Shown here: piece after piece, positions 7,399 through 16,082 of the stretch
Layout of the letters: every line of letters starts with the position of its first letter
Numbering within the stretch: position 1 is the first letter of the stretch
Virus record (IMG/VR): IMGVR_UViG_3300028394_000383
Span: 1-20,031 of that record
Length of the DNA: 20,031 nt
Reading direction: 5' to 3' (one strand)
From: a virus
Notes under the pieces: generated by a model
What the model saw: only the letters and a program-made list of their open reading frames with translations
The model's database searches: none
What the model was told of the DNA's origin: nothing
Position numbers and translations under genes: made by a program

Positions 7399-9564
7399 TT
7401 AAAATAATGTAATTTGAGATTTTAATGATACAACAGATTTTAAATTAGTTTTAGCTAAATCATAATAGCTTTCTTTTAATTCAAAACCTATACCTTTTCT
7501 ATTCATTTTTACAGCTTGATATACTTCGCTTCCAATTCCCATAAATGGAGTGAAAACAGTATCTCCTTTATTTGAATACAAATGAATTAATCTTTCAATA
7601 GTATCTAATTGTAATGGACAAATATGTTTTTCATCATTTTCTTCTCTACCATTCCTGTAACCTTGTAATGTATTTCCATAATTAATATCCATCCATACAG
7701 GTGAAGCGTATTTTTGCCACAAATCAACACTTAGCTCAGTATTTTTTACAGGATTACTTCTTTCTCCATCCTTTCTAAAAATCATAACATAATCAGGAAT
7801 ACCAACTCTGGACATGGTGGAGTCTTTTTTTACTTGTTTGTGCAACAATCCTAAAGCCTTAGTTCTTTGCATTTCAACAACTGGGTCTTTCCAAATTGTA
7901 ATTCTACTTGCGTAAATAAAACCAACTTCTTCAAATGATTTTAAAATCATTCCTGAAAAGTCTCTTAATCCAATATATCCTTCTTTGCCTTTTTGGATAG
8001 GCAAATCCATACAATGTACACATACATTCCTGCCTTGCATCATTACTCTATGTAATTCTTTTATTAAAAAATTAAATTGAGTTAAAAATTCATTATAATT
8101 TTTTGAGTTACCCATATCTTCAATGTGATTTGAATAGGTATATAATTCAGCGAAAGGTGGGCTAAAAACAGATAATCCTATACTTTCATCTGGTAAATCT
8201 TGTATTAACTGAACTGAATCACCTCTTTTAATATTATACCATTCGTTATTTTCATGAGAAATATCAAATACTTTTGAACTCATTATACTTCCAGATAAAT
8301 TTAAATTTACCGCTTTTGCCATTTCTTCCTGCATTAATAAAAATTGTTTTTGTTTGTAATCAATCGCTTGTTTAACATTACTCATTGTATCGGTTGTAAT
8401 CAAATAAATGTTAACTTCATTTTTTTGACCAAATCTATAAGACCTTCTTATTGCCTGATACAATCCCTCAAAAGAAAAATCTAAACTTGCAAATATTTGA
8501 TTATTGCAATTTTGATAATTCATTCCAAAACTTGCTATCTTAGTTTTAGTAATTAATATTCTAAATTCATTGTTTGCAAATCCAAGTAATTTTTCTTTTT
8601 TCCATTCATTAGTATCACTACCTTTTACTTCTATTGCCTCAGGAAGTAATTTTTTAAGTAGTTCACCTTCTTCATTTTGTTTAATCCAAATAATAAAATT
8701 TTCATTTGGTTTAGAGTTTATAATGCCAACTACTTCATCAAGTCTTTCTATTTTAGTTAGTCTTAATTCGCTATTAAAATTTGTAGCTGAAATTATAGCA
8801 TCATTAAATAGTTGTCCATTCTGCCTTTTTGGAGTAATTATTTGATTTTCTAATAGGTTTAATTGAGGAAGATTATAGCCATTCATCTCATATCCTATAT
8901 CCATTGGCTTACTAAGCATAATAGACCATGTACCAACAAATTGATAGAATAATTTTGTAGCATGACCTTTAAGCCTCCATTTTGCCGTTTCTCCACCATC
9001 ATGAATAAAATACATTGATAGCATTTCATTTCTTGTCATTACGTCTAAAAATTCAGAATGATTACCAAGTTCCATTGGATCATTTGGAGAAGGCGTTGCA
9101 GTACAAGCTAATTTATATGGAGTAAATTTAAAATTATCTAAAATATCCTTTTTTGTAGCACCTTCGTAATTTTTTAAAATACTACTTTCATCAAGTACTA
9201 TCCCAGAATATTGATTAACTAAAATATTATCTAATTGCTCGTAATTTATAACATCAATATTAGACATATCAATACCAAATTTAACTCCTTCTTGTTTTGT
9301 TTGACCAACAACAGCTAATGGAGCTAAAATCAATACTTTGCTATTTGTGTGTTTACATACTTGATTTGCCCATTCTAATTGCATCAATGTTTTGCCTAAT
9401 CCACAATCGGCAAAAATGGCATACTTACCAGCTTTTAAGGCTCTTTTAACAATAAATTTTTGAAAGTCAAACATTTTATTATTTAACATTTCATTATCTA
9501 TATCAAACCCACTATTAATGTGTGTTTTTTGTTTTGTTTTTAAAAATTCAAGATAATTTGTCAT
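7399..9564 (-). CDS. SNF2-type helicase fused to a beta-class DNA methyltransferase
   Basis: A 721-residue two-domain protein. The N-terminal SF2/SNF2-type motor shows Q/Walker A ADCGLGKT (52-59), Walker B LDES (124-127), motif III TATP (155-158) and motif VI RRSYRFGQ (373-380). From about residue 440 a methyltransferase domain follows, with catalytic SPPF (468-471, the N4/N6 amino-methylase signature) and the AdoMet-binding FTPFMGIGSE (671-680). The order IV then I marks a beta-class enzyme. Likely role: ATP-driven translocation with adenine or N4-cytosine methylation of phage DNA, protecting it from restriction. No nuclease domain is visible, unlike type I/ISP enzymes. The gene is AT-rich and starts 19 nt after a terminator hairpin. 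Confidence 0.88.
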   Translation of the reverse strand: MTNYLEFLKTKQKTHINSGFDIDNEMLNNKMFDFQKFIVKRALKAGKYAIFADCGLGKTLMQLEWANQVCKHTNSKVLILAPLAVVGQTKQEGVKFGIDMSNIDVINYEQLDNILVNQYSGIVLDESSILKNYEGATKKDILDNFKFTPYKLACTATPSPNDPMELGNHSEFLDVMTRNEMLSMYFIHDGGETAKWRLKGHATKLFYQFVGTWSIMLSKPMDIGYEMNGYNLPQLNLLENQIITPKRQNGQLFNDAIISATNFNSELRLTKIERLDEVVGIINSKPNENFIIWIKQNEEGELLKKLLPEAIEVKGSDTNEWKKEKLLGFANNEFRILITKTKIASFGMNYQNCNNQIFASLDFSFEGLYQAIRRSYRFGQKNEVNIYLITTDTMSNVKQAIDYKQKQFLLMQEEMAKAVNLNLSGSIMSSKVFDISHENNEWYNIKRGDSVQLIQDLPDESIGLSVFSPPFAELYTYSNHIEDMGNSKNYNEFLTQFNFLIKELHRVMMQGRNVCVHCMDLPIQKGKEGYIGLRDFSGMILKSFEEVGFIYASRITIWKDPVVEMQRTKALGLLHKQVKKDSTMSRVGIPDYVMIFRKDGERSNPVKNTELSVDLWQKYASPVWMDINYGNTLQGYRNGREENDEKHICPLQLDTIERLIHLYSNKGDTVFTPFMGIGSEVYQAVKMNRKGIGFELKESYYDLAKTNLKSVVSLKSQITLF

Positions 9565-10647: not shown

Positions 10648-10849
10648 TAATAAATTGTTTTAGTTTGTGATAGCTTCTTTGGTATTCAATGTATTTCTGC
10701 CTTTGCTCCCTGCTCATGGCATGGTACTTGGCTCGGAGGCGTAGGTTCTCGCGTTCGCGGATCTTCTTGTAAGTGTATTCGTTCATGGTGGCGCGGTACT
10801 TCTTCATGTACTCACGCATATAAGCGTTGCGGTCTTGCTTACATTGCAT
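10640..10849 (-). CDS. Small Arg/Tyr-rich basic protein
   Basis: About 69 residues, very rich in Arg, Lys and Tyr, with repeated YM-R/K-EY/KY units (NAYMREYMKKYRA) and RQKYIEYQRSYHKL near the end; a basic helix likely to bind nucleic acid. I prefer the ATG at 10849, which overlaps the preceding gene by 11 nt. A TTG three codons earlier (10858) would add a cysteine and create a C-x-x-C pair (DCMQCK), reminiscent of the first half of a zinc knuckle. No second zinc pair is seen. Function unknown. Confidence 0.65.
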   Translation of the reverse strand: MQCKQDRNAYMREYMKKYRATMNEYTYKKIRERENLRLRAKYHAMSREQRQKYIEYQRSYHKLKQFINE

Positions 10850-11078
10850 ACAGTCCAATATTTTTTATTTCAATTTCAACTTCTTCCCAATATTCGTGTG
10901 CTTTGTATTTTTTTTCATCCCACTTCTCTTGCTGCATTTGCATTGCAAAAAACAGAGCGCATTGTTCCGCGAGGATGGAAACAAGGATTTCATTTCCTAA
11001 TTCTCCTCCGACATTCTGGATGATGATATAGTAGTGGTCAAAGAGCTCCTTGGCTTTTTCTTTGGGTGTTTGTTTCAT
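10839..11078 (-). CDS. MKQTPKEKA-family small protein, copy 2
   Basis: A 79-residue acidic protein whose first nine residues, MKQTPKEKA, are identical to those of the gene immediately upstream. It also shares the middle pattern (A-x-Q-x-AL followed by E) and the closing EYW-x-x-V-x-x-E-I/L-K. It is therefore a tandem paralogue. It is probably a small helical protein of unknown function; families with this opening are, to my knowledge, frequent in Bacteroidota phages, often in several copies. Coupled to its paralogue by an ATGA overlap. Confidence 0.75.
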   Translation of the reverse strand: MKQTPKEKAKELFDHYYIIIQNVGGELGNEILVSILAEQCALFFAMQMQQEKWDEKKYKAHEYWEEVEIEIKNIGLYAM

Positions 11079-11323
11079 AAGCTTTTAAGTTCATTTTTTA
11101 CATGAATCCAATATTCTAAAGTTCCTTTGTCGTGATATTCTTGTAATGTAAATCCATTTATTTCAAGTATATCTATTATTTCATCAACTGCAACCAATGC
11201 AAATTGCTTAGCTTTAGATGAATCAATGTGTTCTATCCAGCCTTTAAATTCATCTAAGAATTTTGTGCATATAGTAAATTTATTAATTAATTCAACTGCC
11301 TTTTCTTTAGGTGTTTGTTTCAT
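11075..11323 (-). CDS. MKQTPKEKA-family small protein, copy 1
   Basis: An 82-residue protein beginning MKQTPKEKAVELINKF and containing KAKQFALVAVDEIIDILE and a C-terminal LEYWIHVKNELKSL. It is the tandem paralogue of the following gene (see 10839-11078), with diverged middle parts. The ATG overlaps the cytosine methyltransferase TGA by 4 nt (ATGA), and its own stop overlaps the next ATG the same way, so the three genes are coupled. No catalytic residues are apparent; small helical accessory protein. Confidence 0.77.
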   Translation of the reverse strand: MKQTPKEKAVELINKFTICTKFLDEFKGWIEHIDSSKAKQFALVAVDEIIDILEINGFTLQEYHDKGTLEYWIHVKNELKSL

Positions 11324-12576
11324 TCTTTTAAGCTTTGTATATATTCAATCGTATTAAAAATACGATACACAATTTGCGGCACTACGGCATTTCCGTATCC
11401 TTTGATGCTTTCGTTTCGCCACTTTGAAAAGGTAATATTGTCCAATCCGTGGGAAATCCCATCATCTCCGCTACAAACAGGGGATTGAGTTGGGAAGTTG
11501 TCCCACGCGGTATTCCAGATATTTCGTGAGCTTGTACTGCTAAATCTGATTTCCCTTTCCAATTCTCCGATGGGCCCGCACTTCCTTTCCAATCGGATAC
11601 TATCGGTGTAGGTAGCATCCCCATCTTCGCTAATGTCGTTAAATCGTCCATCTTCCCTTCCTCTATTCTCTGATGACTGTTCCCTTGTCCTTTGACTCTC
11701 GGTGTCGGTAGCATTCCCGATGCCATTGCTCTGGTCAATGTCATTGAGTGCATTGAACCCTCTTTTATTTGCGTTGATTTCATCGTTGCCGTTGCGTTCG
11801 TCGAATCCATGCAAGTCGGAGTTGGGAGCATCCCGTTGTTTGCCATCTGGGGTAAACTTATCCCAAATCTCACACCCGTTTTTAGACTTATTGATTTCCC
11901 GTCCGTTAATACTCTGCCCTCGTTTGTTGCATTCATTACCGTTGGAGTGGGCAGCATCCCGTTGTAAATCGCAAAATCTGTTATTGAAAATTGTCGATGT
12001 GTTCCTGCTTTGTTCAGCCGTGTGTATAATGGAAGATTGTTCTCCCTCATTTGTAATGCTAATTCCGGTCTTCCTCTCTGCATTGTGTCTGGAGTTGGCC
12101 ACAATCCAAAGTCTTTCCCTTTGGTGAGGTGCGTTGATCCCCGAAGCTGGAATAATAAACGCTTGGACTTCATATCCAATATTTTCCAAGTCAGCACACA
12201 CCTCGTGGAAAACCATCCCTCCATTCCAGTTAAGTAATCCACGAACGTTTTCGCCCACAACCCATTGTGGTTTAACTTCCCGAATAACTCGGAGCATTTC
12301 TGGCCAGAGGTGTCTGTCATCTTCCTTGCCAAGTCGCTTCCCGGCTGCGCTATATGGTTGGCAAGGGAATCCGCCTGAAATAATGTCAACTGTTCCGCGG
12401 TACTTTGTAAAGTCTGTTTTTTTAATGTCTTCATGGCATTCTGCATTTGGCCAATAGTGATTTAATATTTTACGGGGAAATTCTGCTATCTCACAATGAA
12501 ATATATTCTCCCATCCCATCCAGTCTGCGGCAAGGTCAAATCCACCTATACCACTAAATAAGCTTCCGTGTTTCAT
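11320..12576 (-). CDS. DNA (cytosine-5) methyltransferase
   Basis: A 418-residue C5-methyltransferase. Motif I FSGIGGFD (7-14) binds AdoMet; motif IV GGFPCQPYS has catalytic C72. Motif VI ENVRG (109-113), motif VIII QRERLWIVA (152-160) and the late GYGNAVVPQ motif near residue 395 are all present, so the enzyme looks intact. Residues 165-375, where the target-recognition region lies, are unusually polar, Asn/Asp/Arg-rich and repetitive (DAAHSNGNE, DAPNSDLHG, NATDTESQR, DATYTDSIR). That region is covered by a second long ORF in another frame. No restriction endonuclease gene is adjacent, so it is probably an orphan enzyme protecting phage DNA. ATGA overlaps on both sides. Confidence 0.93.
   Translation of the reverse strand: MKHGSLFSGIGGFDLAADWMGWENIFHCEIAEFPRKILNHYWPNAECHEDIKKTDFTKYRGTVDIISGGFPCQPYSAAGKRLGKEDDRHLWPEMLRVIREVKPQWVVGENVRGLLNWNGGMVFHEVCADLENIGYEVQAFIIPASGINAPHQRERLWIVANSRHNAERKTGISITNEGEQSSIIHTAEQSRNTSTIFNNRFCDLQRDAAHSNGNECNKRGQSINGREINKSKNGCEIWDKFTPDGKQRDAPNSDLHGFDERNGNDEINANKRGFNALNDIDQSNGIGNATDTESQRTREQSSENRGREDGRFNDISEDGDATYTDSIRLERKCGPIGELEREIRFSSTSSRNIWNTAWDNFPTQSPVCSGDDGISHGLDNITFSKWRNESIKGYGNAVVPQIVYRIFNTIEYIQSLKE
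11382..12446 (-). CDS. Overprinted ORF inside the methyltransferase gene (PTP-repeat protein)
   Basis: A 354-codon ATG-initiated frame on the same strand, +1 relative to the methyltransferase, covering its codons 44-398. It encodes a distinct protein with five PTP motifs: LWPTP at 115-119 and MLPTP at 164-168, 206-210, 245-249 and 277-281. A C-terminal LNPLFVAEMMGFPTDWT sits at 320-336. An uninterrupted frame this long is very unlikely by chance in AT-rich DNA. From memory, proteins with repeated [ML]-[LFW]-PTP-x-x-x-D and a closing LNP-x-[FW]-V-E-x-x-MGFP-x-x-WT motif recur in phage genomes next to or across C5-methyltransferase genes, usually annotated as hypothetical. No ribosome-binding site is evident. 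Function unknown. Confidence 0.62.
   Translation of the reverse strand: MQNAMKTLKKQTLQSTAEQLTLFQADSLANHIAQPGSDLARKMTDTSGQKCSELFGKLNHNGLWAKTFVDYLTGMEGWFSTRCVLTWKILDMKSKRLLFQLRGSTHLTKGKDFGLWPTPDTMQRGRPELALQMRENNLPLYTRLNKAGTHRQFSITDFAIYNGMLPTPTVMNATNEGRVLTDGKSISLKTGVRFGISLPQMANNGMLPTPTCMDSTNATATMKSTQIKEGSMHSMTLTRAMASGMLPTPRVKGQGNSHQRIEEGKMDDLTTLAKMGMLPTPIVSDWKGSAGPSENWKGKSDLAVQAHEISGIPRGTTSQLNPLFVAEMMGFPTDWTILPFQSGETKASKDTEMP
11603..11961. repeat. Four degenerate ~20-bp direct repeats in the methyltransferase target-recognition region
   Basis: Plus-strand copies near 11603, 11700, 11817 and 11941 share the pattern CGGnGTnGGnAGCATnCC; a weaker fifth lies near 12090. In one frame they encode D-A/T-x-x-S/T-D/N, in the overlapping frame GMLPTP. 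Spacing is irregular (about 97-124 bp). They could reflect internal duplication of recognition-region units or constraint from the second frame. Confidence 0.6.
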
Positions 12577-13463: not shown

Positions 13464-14083
13464 TGTTTACTAATTTTACTAACAATGTAATTAATTACTT
13501 CTGCGTCAAATAATTTATTAATGACTCTTATAAAATCATCTGGTGTTTGTTTAACACTAATAGTTGGTTTTCTTAATCCTACTTGAACCATTGCAGCATT
13601 GGCAGAAATTTCTTTTGCTATAACTTTATTTGCTAAATCTACATGACCAGACTTAGTTAGTTTTTCAATAGAATAATCTACTCTGTTGCCTTGTATTGTG
13701 TTTCGTTTATTAATCTCATTACTAACAATGTTAGTAATGAGATTTGTATTTTTATATTTATAATCACTTCCTCCTAATCCTTTACTCCATAAATCTCTAT
13801 GTTTTACAAGAACATCTTCATGGTCACGAAAGTATTTTTGAAAGTCACTATCTGTACTTCCTAATCCACCTTCTAATATCGGTGTCTCAATAAATGCTTT
13901 GTAAGCTTCATGTCTTGATCGTTTATTTAAAATGTCATTAAAAGCATTTTGCTCTATCATTTCAAAGTAATGTTTCTTTGCACTTTGTACATTATGCAAT
14001 CCACCATGGTATGATTTTATAAAATATTTTATACTAAAATCTAATGGTGTTTTACTTTCTGTAAATCTTACTTCTGAAGCCAT
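13460..14083 (-). CDS. Hypothetical protein, possibly DNA-binding, upstream of the initiator
   Basis: A 207-residue basic protein. The C-terminal third reads SIEKLTKSGHVDLANKVIAKE, then ISANAAMVQVGLRKP. This 'rule out, propagate, SANAA...aG(f/l)RK' pattern resembles a helix-turn-helix-like segment I have seen in phage and ParB-like DNA-binding proteins; the assignment is tentative. The N-terminal half is Lys/His/Tyr-rich with no motif. The gene contains a perfect 33-bp palindrome (13712-13744). It overlaps the initiator by 4 nt (ATGA) and the helicase by 16 nt, so it probably acts in replication or in control of it. Very AT-rich compared with the genes at 9919-12576. Confidence 0.7.
   Translation of the reverse strand: MASEVRFTESKTPLDFSIKYFIKSYHGGLHNVQSAKKHYFEMIEQNAFNDILNKRSRHEAYKAFIETPILEGGLGSTDSDFQKYFRDHEDVLVKHRDLWSKGLGGSDYKYKNTNLITNIVSNEINKRNTIQGNRVDYSIEKLTKSGHVDLANKVIAKEISANAAMVQVGLRKPTISVKQTPDDFIRVINKLFDAEVINYIVSKISKQ
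13712..13744. repeat. Perfect 33-bp palindrome with 1-nt centre
   Basis: The left arm AATCTCATTACTAACA (13712-13727) is the exact reverse complement of the right arm TGTTAGTAATGAGATT (13729-13744), separated by a single A. It lies inside the coding sequence of the gene at 13460-14083, about 520 bp from the iterons. A 13-nt part (TTACTAACAATGT) recurs at 13476-13488 near the end of the same gene. Symmetry without a loop points to a dimeric-protein binding site rather than an RNA hairpin. Confidence 0.8.
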
Positions 14084-15921
14084 ATTGGTAAAGTTTTAGA
14101 TTCATTAATAGTAGTTGATAAAGCATTAAGCCATTCCAATTTATTTTTAAGTTGTTCAAATGTCATGTCTTTTGTATTTGTCCTATTTTCATATACATAC
14201 CTACCATTAATTGATTTTTTTAAATCACCAATAATAGTTGTGTTAATAGATTTTGACTTTAAATTTTTAACTATTTTATATGACATTGAACCTACTAAAG
14301 TATCAATTTTTGCAAGTAATTCATTCCTGGATAACTCTTGTTTATGTATAATTGCTTTCTCTTCAAATATTTTACCAAGATGTTCTTTTATAATATCAGT
14401 ATGCTCTGAATTATTTTTATCAATTATAATTCTTTTATCTGATTGTAAACTATCCTTTAATCTTAAAAACTCTTTTTCTGGCAAATTATTTTTTTGCCAT
14501 TCTTTAAATAATACATCTGTAATTTGATTAAATAAATTATACTCATAAATAGGTAAGTCATTCCAATTATCATCATCTTCTGTAGGTTCATCTATTTTAC
14601 TATCTCCGGTAAACTCTGTTCCTTGCCATGTAATTTCTGATAATTGTTTTATAGTTTCTAATGCTTTAGAATCTGTAGGAACGTAAACATAACCAAAATC
14701 ATCATCATAATTTTCTATCATGTAATTTCTTCTCATGGCTCTCATTATTTTTTGCACAACTTGATTACCATTATATTGAAGAGAAAGATAAATAATAATA
14801 CTTGATTGAGGATTATCAAAACCTTCTCCTGCAACAGATACTTGTACTAAACATGGTATTTCACCATCTTTATATTTTATTAATATTTCTTTATTGTCAG
14901 ATAATTTTCTGCCATTAACACCAGTGCCTATCCAATTAGCAAAATTAGGTCTCATATCATTAATCATTTTACAATAATTTTGAGCTGATGAAACAGTATC
15001 GGCAAATATTAAAATTTGGTGTATAGGTCTATTTGGCTTTTTTGCATTTGCATTAATATATAAATCCGTGTCTTTTAAAGTTAATTGGTCATATTTATCT
15101 ATTGCCTCAATAAACAATGGACTTACATATTTACTTAAATATCTAAGTTGTTTTTTAATTTCATATTGATTTATATCCTTATAATCGTTTAAAATTATTT
15201 CTTCTCTTAATTGTTCTGTAGTTAAATTTAGTACATTACCTTCTATTAAAAGATCAACATAATAATCTCCAGCAATATATTTAATTCGTCTTATTGCTTC
15301 TTCTTCGATACCTTGTTTTATATCTAAGTTGTAAATATTATTACTATCAATTTGCTTAAATATAGATAATTGGTTTGTGTTATCTGGTGTAGCACTTAAT
15401 CCTAAAAAATATTTAGCATTTAATCCAGCAATTAAATTACCAAATTTATTAACATCTGTATAATGATGTGATTCATCAACACATACAAACCAATTACCAG
15501 TTCTTAGTAAATCATTTAAAATAGATCCTCTACTATTTATTCCAAAGTGAGGAGTTACCATAAAAAACTCAGATTTATTATACTGATGTTCTTTTATAGC
15601 AAATGAATCATTTACTTGTACAACAGAATCACCAGAATTACATATAAATTCAAATCCAATTTTTTTACATTGCTTTTTTAAATCTTTGTTAAAATCAATT
15701 AATTTAACTGTTGATGGTGCTACATAAAGAAATCTATCGCACTTTCTTTGTTTACGAAGTTCGTAGTAAGCACCAATAGCAGTTAATGTCTTACCATATC
15801 CTCCTGGTAAAACTGCTAAATAGGTGCCTTGCCCACCGTTTAAAATCATGTTAATTGTTTCCTCTTGACCTTTACGGTACTGGAATCCATCTTGGTTTTC
15901 TTTTTGTGACATTCTAAACAT
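14068..15921 (-). CDS. SF2 DNA helicase (DEAD/DEAH-like)
   Basis: A 617-residue superfamily 2 helicase: Q-region FQYRKGQEET (13-22), Walker A LPGGYGKT (38-45), Walker B VDESHH (148-153), motif III SATP (176-179), IFADT at the start of the second RecA-like domain, motif V GEGFDNP and motif VI QKIMRAMRR. It should unwind or translocate on DNA during phage replication or recombination. The C-terminal ~170 residues are charged and lack recognised motifs. The start is the ATG at 15921, with a second ATG three codons later; both lie inside the HNH gene. The overlap with HNH is 76 nt in a -1 frame. The coding sequence is extremely AT-rich (10 G+C in the 60 bases from 14221). Confidence 0.9.
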   Translation of the reverse strand: MFRMSQKENQDGFQYRKGQEETINMILNGGQGTYLAVLPGGYGKTLTAIGAYYELRKQRKCDRFLYVAPSTVKLIDFNKDLKKQCKKIGFEFICNSGDSVVQVNDSFAIKEHQYNKSEFFMVTPHFGINSRGSILNDLLRTGNWFVCVDESHHYTDVNKFGNLIAGLNAKYFLGLSATPDNTNQLSIFKQIDSNNIYNLDIKQGIEEEAIRRIKYIAGDYYVDLLIEGNVLNLTTEQLREEIILNDYKDINQYEIKKQLRYLSKYVSPLFIEAIDKYDQLTLKDTDLYINANAKKPNRPIHQILIFADTVSSAQNYCKMINDMRPNFANWIGTGVNGRKLSDNKEILIKYKDGEIPCLVQVSVAGEGFDNPQSSIIIYLSLQYNGNQVVQKIMRAMRRNYMIENYDDDFGYVYVPTDSKALETIKQLSEITWQGTEFTGDSKIDEPTEDDDNWNDLPIYEYNLFNQITDVLFKEWQKNNLPEKEFLRLKDSLQSDKRIIIDKNNSEHTDIIKEHLGKIFEEKAIIHKQELSRNELLAKIDTLVGSMSYKIVKNLKSKSINTTIIGDLKKSINGRYVYENRTNTKDMTFEQLKNKLEWLNALSTTINESKTLPIWLQK

Positions 15922-16082
15922 AATAATTGTAGATTATTTATGAAAGTTTGTCCACCAAGACTGTATGGTAAGATATGGTCGGCATGATAGTTGCCCTTGC
16001 AAAGTTCAGTTTCGCATATAGCGCACTTAAAGTCTTGCAGTAACAATAATAAATCCTTAGTACGATTATTAGCTACTCTCAT
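15846..16082 (-). CDS. Small HNH nuclease overlapping the helicase gene
   Basis: A 78-residue protein that is essentially one HNH domain: zinc-type C20-x-x-C23, the H-x-DH active-site motif HADHILPYSLGG (H33, D35, H36), then N49/N50 and a second C55-x-x-C58-H59. HNH domains of this type nick or cut double-stranded DNA. The last ~20 residues (KTKMDSSTVKVKRKQLT) are basic and lie over the helicase start. The ATG overlaps the preceding small gene as ATGA. It may act with the helicase, either as a separate subunit or as a fusion formed by frameshifting at the A-rich site 15894-15908. The domain assignment is firm; the partnership is inference. Confidence 0.83.
   Translation of the reverse strand: MRVANNRTKDLLLLLQDFKCAICETELCKGNYHADHILPYSLGGQTFINNLQLLCLECHKKKTKMDSSTVKVKRKQLT

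Follow-up and report, generated by a model that had tools for sequence, protein, structure and literature searches.

A methyltransferase gene and the +1 frame overprinted on it in a viral genome probably encode the two subunits of one C5-cytosine DNA methyltransferase

Does a long open frame lying inside a phage C5-cytosine methyltransferase gene encode a protein and, if so, what does that protein do for the enzyme whose gene it shares? The question is raised by a 20,031-nucleotide stretch of viral DNA (the window, IMG/VR record IMGVR_UViG_3300028394_000383, positions 1 to 20,031), in which a methyltransferase chain, here called alpha, is overprinted by a second frame on the same strand, here called beta. 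Beta starts at an ATG 130 nt inside alpha, in the +1 frame, and runs for 354 codons, overlapping alpha over 1065 nt, or 85% of its length. An initial interpretation made from the letters alone, the sequence-only reading, had delimited both open reading frames (ORFs) correctly and had proposed that beta is a selected protein and the pair a genuine overlapping-gene system, which purifying selection on beta and the near-universal +1 pairing among its relatives bear out. Beyond this, we put at roughly 0.83 the probability that the overlapping same-strand genes of this locus together encode a single C5-cytosine DNA methyltransferase, naturally split into two subunits.

Beta might instead be an accidental open frame, arising from the composition or codon usage of a GC-richer gene and neither translated nor selected. 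The sequence-only reading had urged caution on two grounds that hold true and that speak for chance: the guanine-plus-cytosine (GC) content is 46% in the overlap versus 34% in the window, and the antisense strand also has a 141-codon open frame there. We held the alpha protein fixed, resampled its synonymous codons and counted stops in the +1 frame (5000 simulations per setting). Given alpha, 15.6 stops were expected with the codon usage of neighboring genes and 7.9 with its own, versus none observed, and a fully open +1 frame arose in 0 of 5000 simulations under either codon usage. Across 121 family members the beta frame contained 0 stops versus 919 expected given alpha, and the alpha frame contained 0 in its variable region versus 861 expected given beta; the third frame averaged 21.6 stops per gene. 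Scattered second-frame stops, which the sequence-only reading had suggested looking for in homologous methyltransferases, were thus not seen. Stop deficits in both directions indicate that each frame is held open against the other. Double avoidance of AT-rich stop codons may itself raise the GC content of a dual-coding stretch, and raised GC could mark hidden overlaps in AT-rich phages. Beta is also conserved in homologues and under purifying selection in tests with simulation and third-frame controls. An accidental frame is already refuted by conservation and the substitution tests, and we leave it practically no chance of being correct.

Selection on the two frames was measured in 37 independent pairs with 78–96% nucleotide identity, each single-base change being classed by its effect in both frames (N, nonsynonymous; S, synonymous; alpha written first). 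Upstream of the overlap, alpha N/S was 0.11. In the first half of the overlap, alpha NN/SN was 0.17 and beta NN/NS was 0.59 [0.43–0.72]. In the second half, alpha was neutral (NN/SN 1.08 [1.01–1.17], NS/SS 0.92; NN/SN 1.08–1.10 across the variable region over the analyses), whereas beta was constrained (NN/NS 0.50 [0.45–0.58], SN/SS 0.42). Relative to the synonymous rate in the part of alpha upstream of the overlap, changes synonymous in alpha and nonsynonymous in beta were reduced to 0.56 and 0.37, a strong synonymous deficit of the kind that the sequence-only reading had proposed to check. As controls, simulations constraining alpha alone gave beta NN/NS values of 1.0–1.2, and treating the +2 frame as a fake gene gave 1.7–2.0. 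Over the same codons of the variable region, mean amino-acid identity was 78% in beta versus 70% in alpha, with beta higher in 32 of the 37 pairs. Both frames are conserved and selected across the family. Because alpha is neutral and beta constrained there, beta is the protein seen by selection from motif VIII to the conserved C-terminal stretch of alpha; over this span the alpha frame is filler, open only for ribosomes to reach motif X.

These rates bear on the possibility that alpha is complete and recognizes DNA through its own variable region, with beta a mere modulator. Alpha does possess motif X besides its catalytic motifs, its variable region has the usual size and place, and the recognition domain of M.EcoHK31I has been predicted in the large subunit (PMC3404938). 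Yet the variable region of alpha shows neutral evolution, falls below beta in conservation across the shared codons and is wholly missing in two relatives described below (L345 and L355), which makes a self-sufficient alpha very improbable.

What beta contributes is suggested by how the methyltransferase motifs are divided. PF00145 matches alpha at 1.1e-43, over residues 1–220 only, and phrog_363 matches it at 3e-73; its PDB matches, M.HhaI and M.HaeIII, cover residues 5–160 only. Motifs I, IV (PCQ), VI (ENV), VIII (QRxR) and X were located in alpha and are conserved across 91 relatives. Motif IX, recognized by MGFP, was present in 160 of 165 beta frames and absent from all alpha C-terminal halves (0/165), and motif X was found in 154 of 165 alpha frames and four of 165 beta frames. 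The methyltransferase that the sequence-only reading called intact therefore has its catalytic motifs and motif X but no motif IX, and part of its frame is unconstrained filler. Beta, whose stop codon falls within the sequence of alpha motif X, ends in the motif IX-like LNPLFVAEMMGFPTDWT. The C-terminal block already singled out in that reading (LNPLFVAEMMGFPTDW) begins at residue 320 and is conserved in the beta alignment, with L320, F324, V325, M328, M329, G330, P332 and T336 invariant. The same reading was right about five PTP motifs (tripeptides starting at residues 117, 166, 208, 247 and 279) and about the existence, in other phages and near methyltransferases, of repeated-PTP proteins with an MGFP-x-x-W ending. 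It missed that the second frame holds the methyltransferase's missing motif IX, which makes the two proteins most likely subunits of one enzyme. The family phrog_1008, annotated "DNA methyltransferase", matches beta at 1.2e-28 over residues 15–339.

Relatives of the pair divide the motifs differently. In L345 and L355, alpha ends right after motif VIII (180 and 171 aa, stop to stop), leaving the recognition region and motifs IX and X to the +1 frame; in L509, motif X likewise lies on the beta frame. A further relative, L334, carries motifs I–VIII, IX and X in one chain, its IX–X stretch being collinear with MGYPDSY...GNSVV of M.HhaI, a weak, sub-threshold stretch. In a catalytic-domain tree the forms with IX and X on beta, as in M.AquI, stand apart, among overlapped forms; supported branches force at least two changes, whichever their direction. 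Such natural variation is consistent with a single enzyme divided at different places.

The +1 pair is widespread. A first scan found it in 159 of 160 IMG/VR loci (80 fetched with beta and 80 with alpha), the exception being a contig end, and in 160 of 160 once profile models were used. It was present in all of a further 80 IMG/VR loci from a beta-profile scan (240/240 in all), in 79 of 80 GTDB loci, mostly Bacteroidota, and in 79 of 80 more distant loci from a deeper beta-profile scan, with some contigs belonging to more than one of these homology-fetched sets. Because homology searches favor near kin, we also surveyed 80 viral contigs chosen solely because their DNA matched a pattern encoding [LF]GNA[VIM]VPQ, the motif X peptide. 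The motif IX pattern occurred in the +1 frame and not in alpha in 73 of these 80, in both frames in none and in the same frame in two. The number of PTP elements per beta ranged from 0 to 7 in this survey, varying with beta length, which suggests that the recognition region may be modular. All of 80 diverse betas matched phrog_1008. In sampled bacterial genomes of three phyla, matches to this family were found in 2/198, 2/199 and 14/200, each count including the genome serving as centre, and 34 of the 35 places fetched were +1 overlaps on a methyltransferase. Three copies in bacterial genomes (L539, L551 and L552) have one in-frame stop inside the phrog_1008 match and are probably decaying prophage copies.

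Beta could also act on its own, as a regulator or an anti-restriction factor for instance, rather than as a methyltransferase subunit; in favor of this, searches with beta alone detected no match to a fold or domain. Against it, beta has the sole motif IX of the locus, motif X is carried by either chain depending on the relative, and a beta family living apart from a methyltransferase was essentially not seen. The search for non-overlapping copies that the sequence-only reading had recommended returned, in essentially every case, a beta overlapping a methyltransferase, and the apparent exceptions were contig ends (L040), a disrupted locus (L508), a likely broken copy (L213) and the M.AquI-like forms. 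We consider a separate function improbable.

In the two-subunit enzyme that we propose, alpha (frame 0) would form the catalytic and S-adenosylmethionine-binding domain, carrying motifs I–VIII and, at its C-terminus, motif X. Beta (frame +1) would be translated from its own start codon inside alpha and would contribute motif IX and the variable region that recognizes the target, the two chains assembling into the fold of a normal single-chain enzyme; to reach alpha's C-terminus, ribosomes would have to read across the stretch that beta uses. We infer internal initiation, assembly and the recognition role of beta from sequence. Of 50 survey loci, 29 have a Shine-Dalgarno (SD)-like site, often AAAGGAG, ahead of the first beta ATG (14.8 expected), and these sites, together with selection on the N-terminal part of beta, support internal initiation. 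The same observations bear on programmed frameshifting, in which ribosomes would leave the alpha frame for that of beta past motif VIII and return ahead of motif X, yielding one full-length enzyme and no separate beta. The resulting order of catalytic part, recognition region, IX and X would read as a normal enzyme, and a single +1 shift would do in L345, L355 and L509. The usual form, however, needs two opposite shifts, and beta is selected over alpha's catalytic half, upstream of any shift (NN/NS 0.59, SN/SS 0.37), and has SD-like sites ahead of its ATG; a frameshifted product is thus quite improbable.

Several observations count against the two-subunit enzyme. Beta has no match in Pfam, NCBIfam or PDB, and a beta profile searched against PDB found nothing. 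The identity of motif IX in beta comes from its sequence pattern, its position and the weak collinear match to M.HhaI, and Pfam offers no model. AlphaFold models of beta alone were poor, both for the window copy (88-row alignment, predicted local distance difference test score (pLDDT) 57) and for a short beta of 167 aa (80 rows, pLDDT 59); the predicted template modeling score was 0.25, and the models were uninformative about a recognition fold. Poor models would be expected of a chain that folds only with its partner, though they do not count as evidence for such folding. In the window's close family only one of 122 beta starts had an SD site, perhaps because the hosts are Bacteroidota, to which the cellular relatives of this family belong and which often initiate translation without an SD site. 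Finally, the window's only close pair (with L006) gave a beta NN/NS of 0.91 in the variable half, where the two are too diverged to show constraint, so that the selection result holds for the family and not for this copy alone. The two loci differ by about eight counted changes in the first half, with a near-identical catalytic half, and by about 194 in the variable half, a contrast that suggests a recognition region exchanged or changing fast.

How such a pair arose can be outlined with about even odds of being right. Overprinting may have been reciprocal: in the 5' half the alpha frame would be old and the N-terminal part of beta invented over it, and in the 3' half the beta frame, with the recognition region and motif IX, would be old and the alpha frame invented as an open neutral bridge to motif X. 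The pair would then have spread through phages and bacteria, swapping motif X between chains (M.EcoHK31I-like to M.AquI-like) and altering specificity through PTP-headed beta modules.

The features of the pair are collected in Table 1. The pair adjoins replication-type genes and no restriction gene was recognized beside it; for these reasons its likeliest role would be that of an orphan phage methyltransferase shielding phage DNA from host restriction. Just downstream lie two small genes on the minus strand (10839–11078 and 11075–11323) that both start MKQTPKEKA, resemble tandem paralogues and are without a Pfam match. The same phage has a second, different methyltransferase, a 721-aa fusion of a superfamily 2 helicase (PF00271) and an N6/N4 DNA methylase (PF01555) at 7399–9564 (minus strand). 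Elsewhere in the window, a ResIII/SNF2-type helicase gene (14068–15921) and an HNH endonuclease ORF (15846–16082), both on the minus strand, overlap by 76 nt.

Table 1. Positions of the alpha and beta chains and their motifs in the window
Feature	Position	Strand	Content or support
Alpha, C5-cytosine methyltransferase chain, 418 aa	11320–12576	−	Motifs I–VIII and X, without motif IX
Beta, overprinted +1-frame protein, 354 aa	11382–12446	−	Proposed target-recognition region and motif IX
Alpha motif I (GSLFSGIGGF, residues 4–13)	12538–12567	−	Largely invariant in alpha alignment
Alpha motif IV, catalytic Cys (PCQPYS, residues 71–76)	12349–12366	−	P71, C72, Q73, P74 and S76 invariant
Alpha motif VI (ENV, residues 109–111)	12244–12252	−	Invariant
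Alpha motif VIII (QRERLW, residues 152–157)	12106–12123	−	R153 and R155 invariant
Alpha variable region (residues about 166–360)	11497–12081	−	In the family, stop-free and amino-acid-neutral; selected protein is the beta frame
Alpha motif X (GNAVVPQ, residues 395–401)	11374–11394	−	G395, N396, A397 and P400 invariant
Beta motif IX-like block (LNPLFVAEMMGFPTDW, residues 320–335)	11442–11489	−	Sequence pattern and conservation
Beta PTP element 1 (residues 117–119)	12090–12098	−	T118 >90% conserved
Beta PTP element 2 (residues 166–168)	11943–11951	−	Sequence
Beta PTP element 3 (residues 208–210)	11817–11825	−	T209 and P210 >90% conserved
Beta PTP element 4 (residues 247–249)	11700–11708	−	P247, T248 and P249 >90% conserved
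Beta PTP element 5 (residues 279–281)	11604–11612	−	Sequence

Few long same-strand gene overlaps have been established in prokaryotes or their viruses, and gene prediction commonly discards one of the two frames. Records of the Acinetobacter phage ABMM1 (L528, 1201–1854) and of the Bacteroides phages BKO1-TP3 and BS-TP4 (L001, L002) give the methyltransferase frame only and leave the overlapping beta gene unannotated. Paenibacillus larvae phage records list both frames as separate overlapping coding sequences named cytosine methyltransferase (PMC6070908) and leave the overlap uninterpreted. This pair, with its hundreds of homologues, statistically strong signs of selection in each frame and clearly divided tasks, makes the origin, age and constraint of overlapping genes measurable. 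Many phage "C5-methyltransferases" annotated as complete would be missing motif IX, and cloning just the annotated ORF may yield an inactive enzyme, a concern both for methylome studies and for predicting specificity. Before the large variable region of such a protein is taken for its recognition domain, the +1 frame should be inspected.

Split C5-methyltransferases are already known in principle. In M.EcoHK31I, to which M.EaeI is said to be similar, the small ORF reportedly overlaps the large one in another frame, as beta overlaps alpha. M.EcoHK31I (YGGCCR) carries motifs I–VIII and X on its large polypeptide and motif IX on the small one, and both polypeptides are needed (PMC3404938), the same division that sequence predicts for the window pair. 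The likeness drawn here is one of architecture (motif division). The window pair departs from the recognition-domain prediction for M.EcoHK31I in that, across its family, selection constrains beta over the stretch in which the variable region of alpha is neutral, and whereas M.EcoHK31I is part of a restriction-modification system, the window pair is a phage gene with no recognized restriction partner. M.AquI (CYCGRG) has an alpha with motifs I–VIII and a beta with IX–X (PMC3404938), a form shared by L345, L355 and L509, which have the same beta family, and unlike that of the window, where motif X is on alpha. The catalytic half of M.HhaI and M.HaeIII is homologous to alpha, but both have every motif in one chain and no second frame; L334 is the single-chain relative, with IX then X. 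In PHROG, families 363 (alpha) and 1008 (beta), both "DNA methyltransferase", are listed apart with no note of overlap or subunits. BsuMI YdiO/YdiP was considered since one phage record uses the name ydiP, and was set aside, as its genes are not known to overlap deeply. We found no prior report of this phage overlap in the open-access literature; subscription papers were outside the search. As far as the open literature shows, what is new here is the dual selection, the recognition region in beta with a neutral bridge in alpha, the prevalence of the pair and its natural interconversion with M.AquI-like and single-chain forms.
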